A DNA stretch of 21,010 nucleotides, from IMG/VR virus record IMGVR_UViG_3300035126_000556, positions 1 through 21,010 of that record; one strand, 5' to 3'. This document shows, piece by piece, positions 2,390 through 12,836 of this stretch. The position numbers and the translations under genes are program-made. Under the pieces are notes generated by a model. It did no database searches, was not told the origin of the DNA, and saw only the letters and a list, made by a program, of their open reading frames with translations. The stretch's first letter is position 1, and every line of letters begins with the position of its first letter. The stretch is from a virus.

Positions 2390-2752
2390 ATGCCAATCAA
2401 TTCTTGCGCCAAGGGTAAGCGTGGAGAAAGAGCATGGAGGGATTTCCTTCGTGCCGTTGGTATCTCGGCTCGGAGAGGTAGGCAGTACTCGGGTTCCCCA
2501 GACTCTCCCGATGTTGTGTCGGATGACGGCATGCACTGGGAGGTTAAGTGGGTTGAGAACCTGAATGTGTGGAAGGCCATCGAGCAGTCGGTCAGGGACT
2601 GCGGAGCTGGAAAGGTTCCAGCGGTAGCCTTTAAGAAAAACGGAACAGACTGGCTGGTTGCCATGAGAGCTGAGGATTTCCTTAAGATCAAGGGCAACTG
2701 CCAAGCAGATGAAACTAAAACGGAGGTTAAAGGAATATGGATAAAGCATTAA
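2390..2752 (+). CDS. Holliday-junction-resolvase-like PD-(D/E)XK nuclease
   Basis: This 120-residue protein matches the compact Hjc-like resolvase layout. E13 lies in the first helix (KGKRGERAWRDFL), D41 follows the SGSPDSPDVV segment, and E51-x-K53 is in HWEVKWVE, followed by a helix with W61 and Q66 (VWKAIEQSV). These are the expected catalytic positions for cleavage of branched DNA with Mg2+. The order annealing protein, exonuclease, resolvase makes a coherent recombination module that probably processes replication intermediates before packaging. The last 16 bases overlap the next gene. Nuclease fold is likely; junction specificity is inferred from family resemblance. Confidence 0.75.
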   Translation: MPINSCAKGKRGERAWRDFLRAVGISARRGRQYSGSPDSPDVVSDDGMHWEVKWVENLNVWKAIEQSVRDCGAGKVPAVAFKKNGTDWLVAMRAEDFLKIKGNCQADETKTEVKGIWIKH

Positions 2753-3096
2753 CTGCATTGTTCTTAAGTGTCTGCATGAGCAACGCAGACCCGATCAAGG
2801 TCAGGTTAACAACCTATCATCGTGGTGAGGATTCATACACTCGGAGACTGAAGAGTGCCTCTGGCTACACGCTCAAGGAGGGCATCTCAGTTGCAGCTGA
2901 CCCTCGGGTATTCGGCTACGGGAACTGGATCTATATCGACGGCATTGGTGCCCGTCAGGTTCACGATACTGGGTCTGCTGTGATCAGCAGGAAAGCAAGC
3001 GGTGGAAAATTCCCCGTGATCGATGTGTTCTTTCACAGCCGTAAGGATGCGGAAGCGTTCGCTAATTCCCACAAGTACGCACTGGTATACCGATGA
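2737..3096 (+). CDS. secreted 3D-domain (MltA-type barrel) protein
   Basis: This 119-residue protein has a hydrophobic N-terminus (ALTALFLSVCMSNA) resembling a signal peptide with possible cleavage before D18. A 3D domain follows, named for three conserved aspartates: D55 in VAADPRVFGYG, D77 in QVHDTGSA and D96 in PVIDVFFHS. In characterised relatives such as MltA this double-psi barrel contributes to lytic transglycosylase activity on peptidoglycan. A cell-wall role in the periplasm is therefore likely, but whether it acts in lysis, envelope remodelling or superinfection is unknown. Location between a resolvase and a helicase is unusual. GGAGG lies ten bases before the ATG. Confidence 0.75.
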   Translation: MDKALTALFLSVCMSNADPIKVRLTTYHRGEDSYTRRLKSASGYTLKEGISVAADPRVFGYGNWIYIDGIGARQVHDTGSAVISRKASGGKFPVIDVFFHSRKDAEAFANSHKYALVYR

Positions 3097-5539: not shown

Positions 5540-6250
5540 ATGCCAGTCATAATCTTGCCAAAGCCGAAAAAAGAATTACCCTCAGTGGAGGTCGCAGTGA
5601 ATAGTGGGAAGGGAGAACCTTCCACGGGCACCGTCTGTTCCTCAGTATGCAGCCCTGTTAAACACACTGCCGACCCTTTATTTTTAGATACTCCAACTGT
5701 TAAGCAGGACATGACAGCTGGGGTGTGTAGCCCGCTGGTGTTCACACCGAACCAGTGTACCTCGATCATCTTGGATGCACAGGTGACTGGGATGGAGAGG
5801 GCTAAGATTCTAAGGGGAGGGAAGTCGATCAAAGGTTATGCGAGGACATGCTCCTCGGCATGGCTCCCGAGGAACGACAAGAACGATTGGATGTATAAGC
5901 GGATGATTGAGGCCACGGCTGAGATCAACGCAAACAACTACGGGTTCCAGATCGATGGCATTCAGTCCATCCAGATCCTGCGGTACCAGCCACTCCAGCG
6001 GTTTGATTGGCACTATGACACCTACCCAGATTCTGGCAGGAAACTAACCGCAGTCGTTAACCTGAGTGACCCGAAGGATTATGTCGGCGGTGGTCTCAGG
6101 ATGTTGGGTGAACTCCACAACAAGAAGTATGTGAGGGATCGTGGTGCAGGGGTCTGGTTCCCTAGCTGTCTAAAGCATTGTGCAAAGGCACCTTGGTGGG
6201 GCGAGCGTTGGGTTCTGGTTGCTTGGTTCCTCGGAGGAAACTTCCGATGA
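5540..6250 (+). CDS. 2-oxoglutarate/Fe(II)-dependent oxygenase
   Basis: This 236-residue protein is a probable dioxygenase of the prolyl-4-hydroxylase-like (P4Hc) group. The iron triad is visible as H158-x-D160 in FDWHYDTY and H213 in LKHCAKA. R223, ten residues after the distal histidine, would bind the 2-oxoglutarate carboxylate (WGERWVLVAWFLG). Between them lies the family's strand GGGLRMLG. The first 70 residues are Pro/Ser/Thr/Val-rich and look like an extended linker. Such enzymes in phages may hydroxylate proteins or nucleic-acid bases; the substrate cannot be told here. AGGAGG sits 8-10 bases before the ATG, one of the strongest ribosome sites of this operon. Confidence 0.85.
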   Translation: MPVIILPKPKKELPSVEVAVNSGKGEPSTGTVCSSVCSPVKHTADPLFLDTPTVKQDMTAGVCSPLVFTPNQCTSIILDAQVTGMERAKILRGGKSIKGYARTCSSAWLPRNDKNDWMYKRMIEATAEINANNYGFQIDGIQSIQILRYQPLQRFDWHYDTYPDSGRKLTAVVNLSDPKDYVGGGLRMLGELHNKKYVRDRGAGVWFPSCLKHCAKAPWWGERWVLVAWFLGGNFR

Positions 6251-7323: not shown

Positions 7324-7593
7324 TTATCTGTCTCCGTACAGGGGTAACTCGAACTTGGTATTGAACCTATGCTCGAGCCACTTATCTATTGAGACGAGAG
7401 ATCCTATGATCTCTTTCTTTTCTTTCTGTGTTATGGCTTTCGCCATGACCGAGTCTTTGCCAACACGCACGATGTGCCTGAGCCAGTACCACTGATTGAT
7501 ATTGGGGCAGGACTTCATGTTGTTACCCTCACGCCGAATGCGTTTCCGCATTAGCTCGGAGTGAGTGCCGAGCAACACACCCGACAGACTCAT
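7324..7593 (-). CDS. hypothetical protein, 89 residues
   Basis: The ATG at 7593 overlaps the stop of the ribbon-helix-helix gene by four bases, and GAGGAG lies upstream, so the two are probably co-translated. The product is basic, with a tryptophan-containing segment (NINQWYWLRHIVRVGKDSV) and a helical C-terminal half (TQKEKKEIIGSLVSIDKWLE). I recognise no family. Following a small RHH protein it could be its regulated partner, but no toxin motif is visible. Confidence 0.55.
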   Translation of the reverse strand: MSLSGVLLGTHSELMRKRIRREGNNMKSCPNINQWYWLRHIVRVGKDSVMAKAITQKEKKEIIGSLVSIDKWLEHRFNTKFELPLYGDR

Positions 7594-7724
7594 TTCGTTT
7601 TCTCCTCGATGAACTCCAGCAACGCCTCTCGGACAATCGATCCGAGTGATCGGTCACCAGACTCCTTCGATATCTTCTCCATGTCTGCCCGTATTTCGTC
7701 GGGCAGGTTGACACTAATTCTCAT
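7590..7724 (-). CDS. ribbon-helix-helix (Arc/CopG-type) DNA-binding protein
   Basis: This 44-residue protein has the minimal RHH plan: an N-terminal strand (MRISVNLPDEI, alternating residues for the antiparallel ribbon), helix A (RADMEKISKESG), a turn, and helix B (SLGSIVREALLEFIEEKTK). RHH dimers insert the paired strands in the major groove and usually repress their own operon. It is much shorter than most bacterial CopG proteins but close to Arc in size. It lies in the tail of the leftward operon between small unknown genes. The fold is confident; the target is unknown. Confidence 0.8.
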   Translation of the reverse strand: MRISVNLPDEIRADMEKISKESGDRSLGSIVREALLEFIEEKTK

Positions 7725-7908
7725 AGCTCATCTCCTCCTGTACCTGTTCGAGACCAGCCCGAACACTTTCTTTGATGTGAACCTCTGCGACACTCTCGTC
7801 GAGTTCATCCGTACTTCGGATGACTCCCTCGTCTTTGAGTGTCTCGAGGATGGTTGCAGCAATCGTGTCGAGTGCTTCGTCATCCTCAAGAAGCTGGGTT
7901 AGCTTCAT
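7714..7908 (-). CDS. small acidic protein, 64 residues
   Basis: The frame starts at ATG 7908 inside the end of the upstream gene, with GGGAAG upstream, and its end overlaps the RHH gene by 11 bases. The protein is highly acidic and helical (LLEDDEALDTIAATILETL, DELDESVAEVHIKESVRAGL). No family recognised. The charge would suit a protein-binding antagonist or DNA mimic, but this is speculation from composition only. Confidence 0.5.
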   Translation of the reverse strand: MKLTQLLEDDEALDTIAATILETLKDEGVIRSTDELDESVAEVHIKESVRAGLEQVQEEMSYEN

Positions 7909-8752
7909 TATTTTCTTCCCTTTCTTGGTTGTCTGTCAGATCACGAACAGCCTTGAAAAGCTGTTGGAGCTTCCAGTTGTTTTCGTTTCTCAGCTTCTCA
8001 TCATGGATGCTGAAGTTGAGTCGCAGGTCGCATGAGATGTGGCTCGCATGATTCCCGCTGATCGTCAGGTCGACTCCGACCTTCCCGACTTTCTTCGTGT
8101 GCTTACTCGACGGCCACTCCGAGCGGAGACACTTGTCGAGTGAGTAAGATGAGTTCTTGGTGAAGACATCTTCCCTTGGATCATCGAGACGGAATTTGCT
8201 TCCCTTTATAAATCCAAGAGACCTCCTCAAGGCAAGTACTGTCCTCCTGTTACGCCTCCTGTTGACTGCATGGAATGCGTTCTCCGACTCGTACTTTGCG
8301 GGTAGCTCCCCAGCCAGCTTGTTCAACTCAGCGAACAGGGCTGGCACATAGGCCAAGCTGTCGCTCTTGAATCTCCACTTGATTGGTAGCTTGTAGTACT
8401 GGGAGAGAACCAGCCCCCAGTCGGACTGGATGCAGGTTGCCTCACCTCGCCCGCCTTGAAGGTAAACTCTTATGTCTGATCCACGGACAAAGATTTCTCC
8501 TAAGCCGTGGAGCTGGGAATAAGCCTCGGCCTTTTCCTGTATCCACAGACTCGCCTTGTGCCACGCATCGTTTGATTGCGTGTCCCAAGTTGCCTTGCTG
8601 GGGATCAGTCGAGGGATGTTTCCCCCGAGGGCATTTGTCACCGCATTCCTGATGATCCTTTCCGACACCTGCTTGGGTAGCAGGGACAGGAGGTTGGTCT
8701 TGGTGACCCAAACCTCCTGACCCTTGCCAGCTCTGTTTTTAATTACGCTCAT
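7886..8752 (-). CDS. hypothetical protein, 288 residues
   Basis: The ATG at 8752 overlaps the upstream stop (ATGA). The N-terminal part is helical (LLSLLPKQVSERIIRNAVTN). The middle is aromatic and strand-rich (GEIFVRGSDIRVYLQGG, SDWGLVLSQYYKLPIKWRF). A basic cluster (NRRRNRRTVLALRRSLGFI) and a second strand-rich part (GKVGVDLTISGN, CDLRLNFSIHDEKL) follow. I recognise no family. Being coupled to the 8749 gene and downstream of the ATPase-VWA pair, it may be an accessory or target protein of that system. Two-domain architecture is probable. Confidence 0.65.
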   Translation of the reverse strand: MSVIKNRAGKGQEVWVTKTNLLSLLPKQVSERIIRNAVTNALGGNIPRLIPSKATWDTQSNDAWHKASLWIQEKAEAYSQLHGLGEIFVRGSDIRVYLQGGRGEATCIQSDWGLVLSQYYKLPIKWRFKSDSLAYVPALFAELNKLAGELPAKYESENAFHAVNRRRNRRTVLALRRSLGFIKGSKFRLDDPREDVFTKNSSYSLDKCLRSEWPSSKHTKKVGKVGVDLTISGNHASHISCDLRLNFSIHDEKLRNENNWKLQQLFKAVRDLTDNQEREENNEANPAS

Positions 8753-9270
8753 TTTGCCACCACCTTTCTCTTGCTGGATTTGTTTCGCTTTAGTTTAGGG
8801 AAGTGCTTGCCGTCTCTAAGATGCGAGATGTCTCCCGCAAGGTAGTAGGCAAACGCCTCGGTCAACCCGTAGGCCAAGGCCAATGCTGGATCTGTAAACC
8901 CAAAGTCACTGCTTATTGATCCAGCCTTAGCTTCCCAGCAGGGTGAGGAGGTGGACGGAACGAACCGACCATCCTCAGTGCGACAGAGTAGAATCTCAAT
9001 CTCTCCGTCACCCTTGGCGAAGATGGATGGAGTAAACTCCCAGCCATGTCCGTCCTCTGGCACACCGCTCCTACTGATCAACTGTTTCGCATAATCTGTT
9101 GCCTTGGGTCGGATGATTGATTCGATATCGTTAATCGAATCTGAGTCATCTTCTCCGTATAACCTCTGACACTTTTCGTATGCGTTATTAAGTTCAAGAA
9201 TCTTTGACCTGTCAGATTTGCTGAGTCGGTCAAATATCTCTTTGATGTGTGTTTTGTTTTTGTTGTTCAT
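8749..9270 (-). CDS. hypothetical protein, 173 residues
   Basis: ATG 9270 is chosen because AAAAGGAACAGACAAC, the leader shared by genes of this operon, ends directly before it. The frame is open upstream but that extension lies in a hairpin region. The N-terminal 75 residues are helical and charged. The rest has strands (EIEILLCRTEDGRFV) and a helix (DPALALAYGLTEAFAYYLAG), ending in a basic tail (KLKRNKSSKRKVVAK). No known family. Co-translation with the 288-residue protein suggests a functional pair. Confidence 0.65.
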   Translation of the reverse strand: MNNKNKTHIKEIFDRLSKSDRSKILELNNAYEKCQRLYGEDDSDSINDIESIIRPKATDYAKQLISRSGVPEDGHGWEFTPSIFAKGDGEIEILLCRTEDGRFVPSTSSPCWEAKAGSISSDFGFTDPALALAYGLTEAFAYYLAGDISHLRDGKHFPKLKRNKSSKRKVVAK

Positions 9271-9297
9271 GTTGTCTGTTCCTTTTAGTTGTGGCTT

Positions 9298-9341: not shown

Positions 9342-10592
9342 TCATCCCTCCCGAGGGATGTTGACCAGCTCCCCATACGGGGGCTGGATGCCTTCAGTGT
9401 TGGAGTGGATCGCCCAGACAGTCGGGCAAACCTCAGCTCCCCAGTTGCTGACTTGGCCGTCAGTGATGAAGACATGTGCCTTCACCTCGTTGCCCTGACT
9501 GATCAGGTCATCGAGTTTCACCGAGGCATCGTCGAAGTCTGTGCCACCACCGCCCCGCAACTTGGGGAGGGGATCGCCGTCGAGGTATTCCTCGAAGCCG
9601 TAGTGTTCGGTATCGCACGAGCCGATGAAGACTTTCGCCTTGATCGACTGGGCACACTCCTGCACCTCGGCGATGGCCTGCTCGTAAAGCTCGGGGCTGA
9701 TGCTCCCCGAGGTGTCCACCGAGATCGCCAGTACGCCTGCACCCTCAGAGCTGAGGCTCGGGAGGATTGCGGTGCGGTGACGGCGAGATGGCCTACGCCA
9801 GCTCCAGTCATCGTTGGTCTTCTCGGTCAGCAGTCGGCGAAGTGTGTCCCGCCAGTTGACCGCTGGTTTGCGTGAGCTACCCAGCAGTCGGTCAAGCCCA
9901 GCGGGCAGGTTGCCAGCGAGTCGGGCTGTAGCCTCTGCACCAGCTACTGACTGAAGAATCTTTTCAGATACCTCGGCCTTCTTCGCTTCGCTCAGTGGCT
10001 TGCCGTCCTCGGTTGGGTCTTCAACCTTGCCCCACTCGGATGACTTGTCTGGCTCGCTGTCAGACGATTGCTCGTCGGACTGCTCATCGCCACCAGCTCC
10101 CGAGCTGGATGACTTGTCATCCTGTTTGCTGGATGACTGGTCATCCTGCTTCTGCTGTTTCTGCTTCTGCTTCTCAGCCCTGTCTTTTGCCAGTATCTCG
10201 TAGACCTGATACTCGGACAGGTTGCGGTACTTTTCATCGAGGAGACCGCCCTCGGGCAGGTAGTACCCGCCGTCTTTTAGAATCAGGTTGATGACATAGT
10301 CACACGCCTGATTCCAGAGCTGAGGGTCACGGCTTCCACGATTGACCGAGTGGAGCAGTGCGATGTGAAGCACCTCGTGAGCGATCAGCCCAACAACCTG
10401 CCTCACATCCAGCTTCTCGAGGAAGCTGGGTGCGTAGCGGATTCTCGTGCCGTCCGTGCATGCCGTCTCGACTGCCTCGTCCAGCTCACTGGGCAGACCG
10501 CATGCGATTGCCCCGAAGAACGGGGCATCGCACACGATCCGCACCCGAGCCTTCTCGAGTATCGACTCTGCAGATAGTTTTTTCTTGTTCAT
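9342..10592 (-). CDS. metallopeptidase-like and VWA (MIDAS) domain protein, DUF2201-like
   Basis: This 416-residue protein joins two domains. The N-terminal part has an HExxH zinc motif, H72-EVL-H76, with a further histidine at 81 and the following LWNQACDYVIN segment, as in putative metallopeptidase DUF2201_N proteins. After a Gln/Asp/Ser-rich linker (about 139-200) and a helical segment comes a VWA-like domain with a complete MIDAS: D293-x-S-G-S297, T351-D352 after a glycine run, and D378 in FITDG. Such proteins act with MoxR ATPases, and the MoxR gene is directly upstream, 18 bases away. Whether the peptidase site is active is unknown. GGAGG precedes the ATG at good spacing. Confidence 0.85.
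   Translation of the reverse strand: MNKKKLSAESILEKARVRIVCDAPFFGAIACGLPSELDEAVETACTDGTRIRYAPSFLEKLDVRQVVGLIAHEVLHIALLHSVNRGSRDPQLWNQACDYVINLILKDGGYYLPEGGLLDEKYRNLSEYQVYEILAKDRAEKQKQKQQKQDDQSSSKQDDKSSSSGAGGDEQSDEQSSDSEPDKSSEWGKVEDPTEDGKPLSEAKKAEVSEKILQSVAGAEATARLAGNLPAGLDRLLGSSRKPAVNWRDTLRRLLTEKTNDDWSWRRPSRRHRTAILPSLSSEGAGVLAISVDTSGSISPELYEQAIAEVQECAQSIKAKVFIGSCDTEHYGFEEYLDGDPLPKLRGGGGTDFDDASVKLDDLISQGNEVKAHVFITDGQVSNWGAEVCPTVWAIHSNTEGIQPPYGELVNIPREG
10093..10146. repeat. three consecutive palindromes in the VWA gene linker
   Basis: CCAGCTC-CC-GAGCTGG (10093-10108) is followed by GGATGACTTGTCATCC (10107-10122) and GGATGACTGGTCATCC (10131-10146). The last two are near-identical copies 24 bases apart, each self-complementary with a two-base centre. 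They lie in the low-complexity linker coding for Gln/Asp/Ser runs. The tandem copies probably arose by slippage. The palindromes could fold in the mRNA or simply reflect repeated GAC/TCA-type codons. Confidence 0.6.
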
Positions 10593-10610
10593 CGCTGAAC
10601 CTCCTTTTTG

Positions 10611-11645
10611 TTAGGCCACCAACAGGTGACCACGATTCGCTACCCACTCTCCGTAGTGCGGGCAGATCTCAACTTTTGGTGCGACCTTGGTCGCTGTCTT
10701 TGAGGCGAAAGCCTCGAACGCCTCGCCGAGTCGAGGGATGTAGCTGAAAAACGCTTTCGAGTTTTTCGCATCAACCTTCAGCCTCGCCGTCAACGCACCG
10801 ATCAAAGCCCACCGAACCTCGGGCTTGGTCGGCACCGATGCCTTGGCGGGATTCGCCAGTATCTCGTCGGGCAGAGTTGCCAGCCCCTCGTAGACCGAGA
10901 GGAAGCCGTGCAGGTCAACGCCCGCCGTCCCGAGCGAGGCGGTGAGCCAAGCGGGAGAGGTGAGCTTTGCCTTCACGAGTCTGTCAACTGCCTCCCACGA
11001 GCGAGGACACGCCACTTTCTTGGCGAACTCGGCGGTGGGTTCTTCAGCGAACCGATCAGGTCGGAACTGCAGGAAGCTGAGAATCTCGGGGGAGATCCCA
11101 GCACCGCCTGCCCATCCGAGCCAGTGGTTGAGGTCGGGCAGAACTTCGATGGTCGCATCGAATCGCCCGATCAACGGGGAGATGAGCCAGCCCACGCCAG
11201 CCCGATCAGTGCGGGCATTCGTCGCTCCGACGAACTGCACACAATCGGGGATGCGTTTGCCTTCGACCTCCCGTGCCCAGATGATGTGTTGCAGACCTTT
11301 CTGCACCGCCTCACTGGCCTGACCCAAGTCATCGAGGAAGCACAGGGTGGGCTTCTTTGCTTTCAGCAATCTCCTGAGCAGTCCGATTGGATCGAACACC
11401 GCCGACCCGTCGATCACCACAGGCAGACCTTTGTAGTCTGTGGGGTCAGAGCAGGCAGGGGTATCCACGATGACCTCGGGGTCACCGCCGATCTCGGAAG
11501 CGACCCGCTTCCAAGCATCCTGCACGATGGCAGTTTTGCCGACTCCCGCCCGCCCGATGAGCAGGCAGGAGATTTTGTTTTTGAATGCCGTTGCGAGATC
11601 GCTCGCAAGGTTACCGATTTTTATTTGGTTGATGTTGTTGTTCAT
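10611..11645 (-). CDS. MoxR-type AAA+ ATPase
   Basis: This 344-residue protein is an AAA+ ATPase of MoxR/CbbQ type. Visible motifs are Walker A G31-RAGVGKT (31-38), Walker B LCFLDDL (101-107), sensor 1 in VGATNAR with N143, and a likely arginine finger at R161 in PLIGRFDA. The loop PTDYKGLPVV (68-77) precedes the helix insert typical of this group. MoxR ATPases form hexamers and work with VWA-domain partners to remodel or activate target proteins. The VWA/metallopeptidase gene follows 18 bases downstream and a DUF3150-like gene lies upstream. GGAGGA sits 8 bases before the ATG. Confidence 0.9.
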   Translation of the reverse strand: MNNNINQIKIGNLASDLATAFKNKISCLLIGRAGVGKTAIVQDAWKRVASEIGGDPEVIVDTPACSDPTDYKGLPVVIDGSAVFDPIGLLRRLLKAKKPTLCFLDDLGQASEAVQKGLQHIIWAREVEGKRIPDCVQFVGATNARTDRAGVGWLISPLIGRFDATIEVLPDLNHWLGWAGGAGISPEILSFLQFRPDRFAEEPTAEFAKKVACPRSWEAVDRLVKAKLTSPAWLTASLGTAGVDLHGFLSVYEGLATLPDEILANPAKASVPTKPEVRWALIGALTARLKVDAKNSKAFFSYIPRLGEAFEAFASKTATKVAPKVEICPHYGEWVANRGHLLVA

Positions 11646-11683
11646 TGTCTATTCCTCCGTTTTGTTTTTGTTTTGTTTGTGCA

Positions 11684-11741
11684 CCCTGCATCCGCAGGGA
11701 TCATGGCAACGCACCCCCGAGGAGATGCGTTGCTGATGATC
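11684..11741 (-). promoter_or_regulatory. structured leader of the MoxR ATPase gene
   Basis: Two hairpins lie between the 59-residue gene and the ATPase. The short one is CCCTGC/GCAGGG (11684-11699) with loop ATCC. The long one has an outer stem GATCAT (11699-11704) with ATGATC (11736-11741), then GCAACGCA (11706-11713) with TGCGTTGC (11726-11733). In the minus transcript the order is long hairpin, short hairpin, an unstructured stretch of CAAAA-type repeats (11657-11683), then Shine-Dalgarno and ATG. The same plan recurs at 12883-12942 and 13585-13630. Function is unknown; translation control or mRNA processing is inferred. Confidence 0.65.
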
Positions 11742-11755
11742 ACTGGTTCTGATTC

Positions 11756-11935
11756 TCAGCCCCTGTAACCACGCTGAATTAGCCCGAACCTGATCTCCGT
11801 TGTCTCGTCAACGATCTCTTTGCAAAGTTCTTTTATTTTTGCGAAGTCATCGTCGGGAGTGACTGAGGCGATGTGTGCTATCTCGCATATCTCGCCAAGT
11901 CTCTCGAATATCTTTATGAGTTTTTCGTCGTTCAT
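11756..11935 (-). CDS. small helical protein, 59 residues
   Basis: The ATG at 11935 is preceded by AAAGGAACAGATAAC, the leader type shared by this operon. The product is acidic and helical: LIKIFERLGEICEIAHIAS, then a break at PDDD, then FAKIKELCKEIVDETTEIRF, ending with a basic tail LIQRGYRG. It probably forms a helical hairpin. No family recognised. Its place between the DUF3150-like gene and the ATPase suggests a small subunit or adaptor of that system, which is inference. Confidence 0.6.
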   Translation of the reverse strand: MNDEKLIKIFERLGEICEIAHIASVTPDDDFAKIKELCKEIVDETTEIRFGLIQRGYRG

Positions 11936-11963
11936 GTTATCTGTTCCTTTCTGTTGAGTGCTG

Positions 11964-12836
11964 TTAAGCAGATGCCACAGTCCCGAGTGAGGACTGTAGA
12001 CTCTGCAGTGTGTTTAGTACCGACTTGGATGCGACCACCGCATCCTTCCTGACCGCCTTCGAGTCCCGCAGAATCTGCGGGTCGTTGAATGCGACCAGAG
12101 TTTTCCGAGCGTCCGAGAGTGCCTGTGCAATCTCGGCGTTGCCCGTGAAGTTCAACGCCTCTGCCTCGGCGATGGTCTCGCTGATGGCAGTGATGGTTGA
12201 GTCACGAAAGATCGCCTTGGGATTCGCCAAGGTGCGACCAAAGTGAGCGACCACATCAGCCACCCTGTCGAGCAGCTGTCTGTGAGCGTCAGCCAGTCGG
12301 GCTGAGATCGCCTGCTGGGCACGAGCCTGCAGGCGGGGGTCGTTGAGGTCGGTCTCCCGAGGGAATGCCTCAGCGTCGAATGTCACCTCGAAGCGGGAGC
12401 GAAACTCGCTCGAGCTGGAGGGGTACTCCGATGCGTTGAACAATCCGTTCAACCTGACCTCGGCCTCGTTCCTGATCTCGTCGTAGCGGGCACAGAGATC
12501 GTCGGCGAGTCGGTTGAACTCGTCGACCAGTCTGTTGTGTGCCTCGGTGAAGGCTTGAAACTGAGAGATCGGGAGAACCCGACTCTCTCCCCGCCACGGG
12601 AGGGTGAACTTGTAGAAGTTCTCCCTGATCCGAGAGGCAACCTGATTGACCGACTTCAAATAGTCGGGTCGGATCAGTGCCTTGACGAATCGCCCGCCCT
12701 GCCCAGCGGAGATCGAGTGATTGGCCTCGACCTCGCTGGTGGCTTTACGATCCTGTCTGCCACCGATGAAACGCCTGATCGAGAGATCGACCAGCCGTGC
12801 GTAGCTGTTGAGTTGCGTTGTTGTTATGTTGTTCAT
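11964..12836 (-). CDS. DUF3150-like protein
   Basis: This 290-residue, largely helical protein resembles DUF3150 proteins found in phages and plasmids near MoxR ATPase and VWA genes. The N-terminal segment LNSYARLVDLSIRRFIGGRQDRKAT is the most typical part. The middle (FTEAHNRLVDEFNRLADDLC, YDEIRNEAEVRLNGLFNASEYPS) and the C-terminal third (AISARLADAHRQLLDRVADV onward) look like long helices and possibly coiled coil. No enzymatic motif is visible. It may be the substrate, adaptor or structural element of the ATPase-VWA machine. AAGGAG lies before the ATG. The family assignment is by pattern recognition. Confidence 0.7.
   Translation of the reverse strand: MNNITTTQLNSYARLVDLSIRRFIGGRQDRKATSEVEANHSISAGQGGRFVKALIRPDYLKSVNQVASRIRENFYKFTLPWRGESRVLPISQFQAFTEAHNRLVDEFNRLADDLCARYDEIRNEAEVRLNGLFNASEYPSSSSEFRSRFEVTFDAEAFPRETDLNDPRLQARAQQAISARLADAHRQLLDRVADVVAHFGRTLANPKAIFRDSTITAISETIAEAEALNFTGNAEIAQALSDARKTLVAFNDPQILRDSKAVRKDAVVASKSVLNTLQSLQSSLGTVASA

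Follow-up and report, generated by a model that had tools for sequence, protein, structure and literature searches.

In the window analysed here, by which we mean the whole 21,010-base stretch of the viral record IMGVR_UViG_3300035126_000556, a fragment of a tailed phage, a minus-strand operon carries genes for a DUF3150-family protein, a MoxR-type AAA+ ATPase and a metallopeptidase-VWA protein, hereafter referred to as the triad. We propose, with moderate confidence, that their products constitute one AAA+/VWA remodelling machine, which includes a peptidase domain, has DUF3150 as its obligate co-factor and targets a complex of the cell or of the replication stage; a physical complex of the three proteins is likely. 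The three genes are as follows, with the evidence for each in brackets (aa, amino acids; MIDAS, metal-ion-dependent adhesion site; pN/pS, ratio of non-synonymous to synonymous polymorphism):

11964–12836, minus strand: DUF3150-family protein of 290 aa, putative obligate adaptor or co-factor (AlphaFold2 model, fold match, PF11348 family link, co-occurrence, pN/pS).
10611–11645, minus strand: MoxR/midasin-type AAA+ ATPase of 344 aa (PF07728, phrog_1297, midasin profile match, conserved motifs, pN/pS).
9342–10592, minus strand: zincin-like DUF2201_N metallopeptidase and VWA protein of 416 aa (PF13203, PF09967, AlphaFold2 matches, conserved HExxH and MIDAS).

Co-occurrence was followed from four seeds, namely VWA in viral contigs, VWA in bacterial and archaeal genomes, MoxR and DUF3150, and was counted in non-redundant loci with at least 4 kb of flanking sequence on both sides. 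MoxR and VWA genes were found in 37/37 viral loci seeded with DUF3150, and VWA in all 41 of those seeded with MoxR (33 with all three genes, 8 with the MoxR-VWA pair), while the VWA-seeded viral loci comprised 11 with all three and 15 with the pair, and the VWA-seeded genome loci 8 with all three, 34 with the pair and one with VWA alone. The genes thus recur together and not independently across viral loci, their order varying (MoxR-DUF3150-VWA, DUF3150-MoxR-VWA as in the window, or MoxR-VWA-DUF3150) with adjacency retained. Among 207 non-redundant MoxR-VWA loci DUF3150 was present in 130, and no other family was present in more than 32, antisense shadows aside. The dependence is one-way and near-obligate: DUF3150 needs the MoxR-VWA pair, but the pair can occur without DUF3150. 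The idea of a three-gene machine, already put forward in the initial annotation, which was made from the sequence alone, is therefore supported by the families of the proteins, their intact sites, gene adjacency and co-occurrence.

All three genes are under strong purifying selection, with pN/pS values, computed against relatives with 95–99% identical proteins, of 0.04 for MoxR, 0.05–0.16 for DUF3150 and 0.08–0.14 for VWA (0.04–0.16 overall). Taken together with co-occurrence, these values exclude a chance origin of the three genes.

The ATPase passes the AAA_5 (PF07728) cut-off and matches phrog_1297 (E 2e-48), and the best PDB match of its family profile is midasin (E 1e-39), with CbbQ and NorQ also among the matches; similarity to the MoxR/midasin group, together with Walker A, Walker B, sensor 1 and an arginine finger, identifies it as a MoxR-type AAA+ protein. 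The Walker A lysine, Walker B aspartate, sensor-1 asparagine and arginine finger are kept in 106–109 of 109 relatives, of which 103 retain the first glycine of Walker A. The early recognition of Walker A, sensor 1 and the arginine finger was correct, whereas the Walker B motif is not canonical, its catalytic glutamate being replaced by aspartate (FLDD, DE to DD) across the MoxR clade to which the window belongs (11/109 relatives).

The VWA protein matches PF13203 (DUF2201_N putative metallopeptidase) with E 1e-55 (189.7 bits, against a curated cut-off of 23.2) and PF09967 (VWA-like) with E 4e-11. The HExxH site (HEVLH) and the complete MIDAS (D293xS295xS297, T351 and D378) attributed to it are both present and almost invariant: HExxH, H81, D98, N102 and the five MIDAS residues are kept in 94–99% of 102 non-redundant relatives, which were reached through MoxR or DUF3150 and hence were not selected on these motifs. 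Loss of the ATPase or MIDAS site in relatives, which would have weakened the proposal, was accordingly not seen, the sites being nearly invariant in the 109 MoxR and 102 VWA relatives. Since candidates for a third ligand beside HExxH are also conserved, the protein has the sequence features of a DUF2201_N metallopeptidase, and its VWA fold, complete MIDAS and position adjoining the MoxR gene are those of a VWA co-factor of MoxR; its peptidase activity is a prediction from these features.

In the AlphaFold2 model of this protein (predicted local distance difference test, pLDDT, 85.9) the C-terminal half resembles the MIDAS domains of Rea1 and MDN1, as well as NorQD, and the N-terminal part the minigluzincins selecase and jannalysin, although no match in the PDB fold search reached E 0.001. 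Residues 258–283 are mostly modelled with low confidence, yet they lie within a conserved motif (YSWxxPNRR, with R270 conserved), and by analogy with NorD (PMC9976466) they could form a pore-binding element. PHROG 1314 and many RefSeq phage records, for example those of N4-like phages, name this family HNH endonuclease, which appears to be a mis-annotation, the proteins matching DUF2201 metallopeptidase and VWA.

Assignment of the 290-aa protein is less direct, as it has no Pfam match at E up to 1, so that the PF11348 cut-off is not reached by the window protein itself, and direct NCBIfam assignment also gave nothing. One relative, L110, which shares its profile family, nevertheless scores above the PF11348 cut-off (E 6.9e-9), and six further family members match PF11348 below threshold. 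The AlphaFold2 model is of high confidence (pLDDT 94.4, predicted TM-score 0.87), and its best viral fold match, in BFVD, is a phage protein named DUF3150 (E 1.7e-15, TM-score 0.80). On the strength of the family profile and the fold match the 290-aa protein is a member of the DUF3150 family, which confirms the DUF3150-like protein described upstream in the same operon. The PDB fold search returned nothing better than E 0.2 and therefore gives no fold-based function; the most conserved residues are R71, D29 and N229. The protein is most likely an adaptor that brings or shapes a client for the MIDAS.

The operon extends from approximately 13.5 to 7.3 kb and lies between replication and recombination genes on the plus strand in the left part of the window (a PD-(D/E)XK exonuclease, a RusA-like resolvase and a DnaB-like helicase) and terminase and portal-like genes in the right part. 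It comprises the triad, a 59-aa open reading frame (ORF) and several small proteins; all of the minus-strand ORFs first annotated were recovered at the same positions. Shine-Dalgarno sequences are present upstream of the main operon genes, with good ones before the DUF3150, 59-aa, MoxR and VWA ORFs. The other members of the operon are:

11756–11935, minus strand: 59-aa accessory ORF between DUF3150 and MoxR (Shine-Dalgarno sequence; protein matched only in the identical contig L015).
8749–9345, minus strand: 198-aa downstream ORF, found in the window clade only (relatives only in near-identical contigs).
7886–8752, minus strand: 288-aa downstream protein, retained in the window clade at identities as low as 27–41% and not found in other triads.
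7590–7724, minus strand: 44-aa ribbon-helix-helix (CopG-like) protein, a possible operon regulator (PF01402 just above cut-off).

The 59-residue protein noted between DUF3150 and MoxR is an open frame with a Shine-Dalgarno sequence, but it is not a conserved member of the set: it was matched only in one contig with 100% identity, and in three close relatives (L003, L004 and L007), whose DUF3150 is 97–99% identical, the gap between DUF3150 and MoxR measures only about 30 bp. It was therefore rejected as a conserved fourth part. The 198-aa and 288-aa proteins were likewise rejected as general parts of the machine, being clade-specific, and the latter is not among the families present in at least 8 of the 207 loci. 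A 35-bp repeat (86%; window positions 9257–9291 and 11922–11956), which spans a ribosome-binding site and start, is common to the 198-aa ORF and the start region of the 59-aa ORF; because it puts a Shine-Dalgarno sequence before an internal ATG, the true start of the 198-aa ORF is probably near 9270. The replication module of the window also contains a gene resembling 2-oxoglutarate-Fe(II) oxygenases (5540–6250) and one for a 3D-domain protein resembling cell-wall lytic enzymes (2737–3096).

Homologues of the VWA protein were found in 644 of 50,697 phage records and those of the ATPase in 503, including gp25 and gp24, respectively, of phage N4. The form with DUF3150 is rare in cultured phages (homologues in 4 of the same 50,697 records) but common enough in uncultivated ones (320 relatives from one scan), and it is also present on conjugative plasmids. 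DUF3150 relatives are held in 42 plasmid records; in those plasmid regions that were read, Cupriavidus, Burkholderia and Rhodovastum show the order MoxR-DUF3150-VWA, and a Simplicispira plasmid has DUF3150-VWA, the gene for an ATP-binding protein lying about 4 kb upstream. Two plasmid triads (L191 and L192, from Cupriavidus and Burkholderia) lie a few kb downstream of PRTRC genes, and one is followed by a type IV secretion operon. Some bacterial genomes carry the triad too, the order in plasmids and genomes being mostly MoxR-DUF3150-VWA; the neighbours of these genomic copies (DUF4942, PcfJ-like proteins, ligases) look like mobile-element genes, and the copies may lie within prophages or integrated elements. 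The set is thus not specific to phages. A quickly built tree of MoxR shows at least 17 changes of source (virus, genome or plasmid) and 14 of DUF3150 presence.

The possibility that the triad-bearing viral contigs are themselves plasmids was rejected, as TraG/TraD was absent from the 50 contigs considered and TerL of the phrog_2 type was present in at least 17 of them; PRTRC genes were found in none of the 50. In phages the set is surrounded by genes of replication and recombination; the known families that recur nearby are PD-(D/E)XK nuclease, SNF2 helicase, DNA polymerase A and DUF5906/VapE-like proteins. A few unrelated loci (L031, L112, L151 and L195) encode GHKL-type ATPases close to MoxR, with rIIA-like ones in N4 and FFH2; a GHKL/rIIA-like ATPase was rejected as a general partner, being near N4, FFH2, L112 and L151 only.

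The proposed mechanism applies one put forward on experimental grounds for NorQD, in which an ATP-driven VWA finger and client binding by the MIDAS lead to remodelling of the client, and which has been suggested to be general for MoxR/VWA couples (PMC9976466), to a set that also includes a zincin domain and a DUF3150 adaptor. By this analogy the MoxR-type subunits would assemble into a hexameric ring, onto which the VWA domain of the second protein would dock; the MIDAS metal would grip the client, and ATP hydrolysis would be transmitted to it as a pull. The zincin-like N-terminal domain could cleave the client once presented, so that the machine may both remodel and cut, and DUF3150, as the third component, would deliver or shape the client for the MIDAS. 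Action would take place inside the cell at the replication stage, on a protein complex of the host or of the element, and not on the virion. Since the same set is also found on plasmids and some chromosomes, the triad probably serves mobile DNA as a general means of taking apart or cutting protein complexes. More tentatively, it is possible that it represents an unnamed three-component AAA+ remodeller and protease of mobile elements, with DUF3150 as substrate adaptor, which dismantles or cleaves a common host complex that blocks replication or establishment.

Several observations weigh against this proposal. DUF3150 is not detected in 77 of the 207 MoxR-VWA loci (some of which are incomplete), nor in N4, so that it is not essential to the pair, and conversely in Tunturiibacter phage Tunturi_3 (L356), which encodes a DUF3150 homologue, neither MoxR nor VWA is matched in any part of the genome. 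Terminase small-subunit genes lie near some loci (19), gene neighbourhood is weak evidence of function, and the MIDAS and HExxH might serve binding only. As further observations on these loci, the Tunturi_3 homologue is labelled HNH endonuclease and has a different AAA protein approximately 2 kb away, and in 14 loci without DUF3150 (L060:6469–7173 and relatives) another protein, weakly matching Nmad5 (nucleotide modification associated), is found between MoxR and VWA.

Among the alternatives, a virion-assembly chaperone that helps to build particles and cleaves structural proteins has already been proposed in print: virion assembly with peptide processing was suggested for a jumbo-phage pair by analogy to p618 and p892 of Acidianus two-tailed virus (PMC7824862), of which p618, a MoxR ATPase with a link to tail development, binds the VWA protein p892 (PMC4124505), and some triads, that of the window included, lie near terminase genes. 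However, the same triad occurs on plasmids and in bacterial genomes, its neighbours are of replication type, and N4 gp24 and gp25 are middle transcripts, neither being in the list of RPP1/RLP1 virion proteins that adjoin them (PMC4193335). We therefore rate virion assembly lower, as quite unlikely, and genomic context, N4 expression class and plasmid occurrence all speak against the particle maturation envisaged in the initial annotation. Carriage by unrelated mobile elements, both phage and plasmid, the middle expression of the N4 homologues and the repeated changes of MoxR source would all suit a role in counter-defence or host take-over, in which the machine recognises a complex, either competing or of the host's defence, and then takes it apart or cuts it; this reading is nevertheless unlikely, given that PADLOC returned no meaningful match for any of the three components and that a place in the core of N4-like phages points to a function required on most hosts.

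Maturation of a single metalloenzyme by a metal-cofactor insertase like NorQ/NorD, CobS/CobT or CbbQ/CbbO is what MoxR/VWA couples of that group perform (PMC9976466), and the solved relatives of the ATPase include CbbQ and NorQ, but no metalloenzyme family is conserved beside the triad in the 207 loci and those systems have no zincin domain, making this very unlikely. A system resembling the MoxR-vWA ternary conflict systems, with which the element would defend itself against competitors or exclude them, would share their three-part MoxR-vWA-X layout (PMC7159879), yet we regard it as extremely improbable: the third part is not VMAP by Pfam, variable effectors are absent, the PADLOC result is negative, and the pair is core in lytic N4-like phages.

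As to novelty, the function had been presumed undescribed, which holds only in part. The MoxR/metallopeptidase-VWA pair is already known (PMC7824862; PMC4193335), and what is new, in the sense of not having been found described, is the near-obligate third component, DUF3150, which phages and plasmids have in common: DUF3150 is named in no open-access paper searched, nor was the DUF3150-dependent three-component form found described there, subscription journals lying outside the search. The pair belongs to the core of N4-like phages and is present in hundreds of cultured phages, yet no function of gp24 and gp25 was found in the literature searched; the near-obligate partner and the non-virion context make this old question testable, with coliphage N4 as a laboratory system.

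Of the known systems, N4 gp24 and gp25, which belong to the 14 genes that form the core of N4-like phages (PMC4193335), are likewise an adjacent MoxR-type ATPase and DUF2201-VWA protein, homologous to those of the window over nearly their full length, but neither the 6 kb around gp25 nor a PF11348 search of the genome revealed a DUF3150, and the N4 ATPase has the Walker B glutamate where that of the window has aspartate. The pair described by Iyer et al. (2021) in group 2.2 jumbo phages has the same two-component architecture, with a metallopeptidase domain fused before vWA, but no DUF3150 component was described and virion assembly was proposed (PMC7824862), whereas for the triad of the window a replication-stage role is favoured. 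Acidianus two-tailed virus p618 and p892 are also a virus-encoded MoxR and VWA that bind each other (PMC4124505), but are described without a peptidase domain (PMC7824862) and in connection with tail development, a distinction drawn from description and not from sequence. NorQ/NorD, CbbQ/CbbO and Rea1/midasin, the nearest solved structures, share an AAA+ ring driving a VWA/MIDAS domain, but have neither a zincin domain nor DUF3150 and serve known, dedicated clients. The MoxR-vWA ternary conflict systems (VMAP and others; PMC7159879) also join MoxR and vWA to a third conserved protein, but that of the window is unrelated in Pfam terms, with no Pfam or PADLOC match of the VMAP, iSTAND, FtsH or beta-propeller type. 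The plasmid operons of Burkholderiales contain the same three families, in the order MoxR, DUF3150, VWA, and differ in that a plasmid and not a phage carries them, with PRTRC genes nearby and, in a single instance, conjugation genes.

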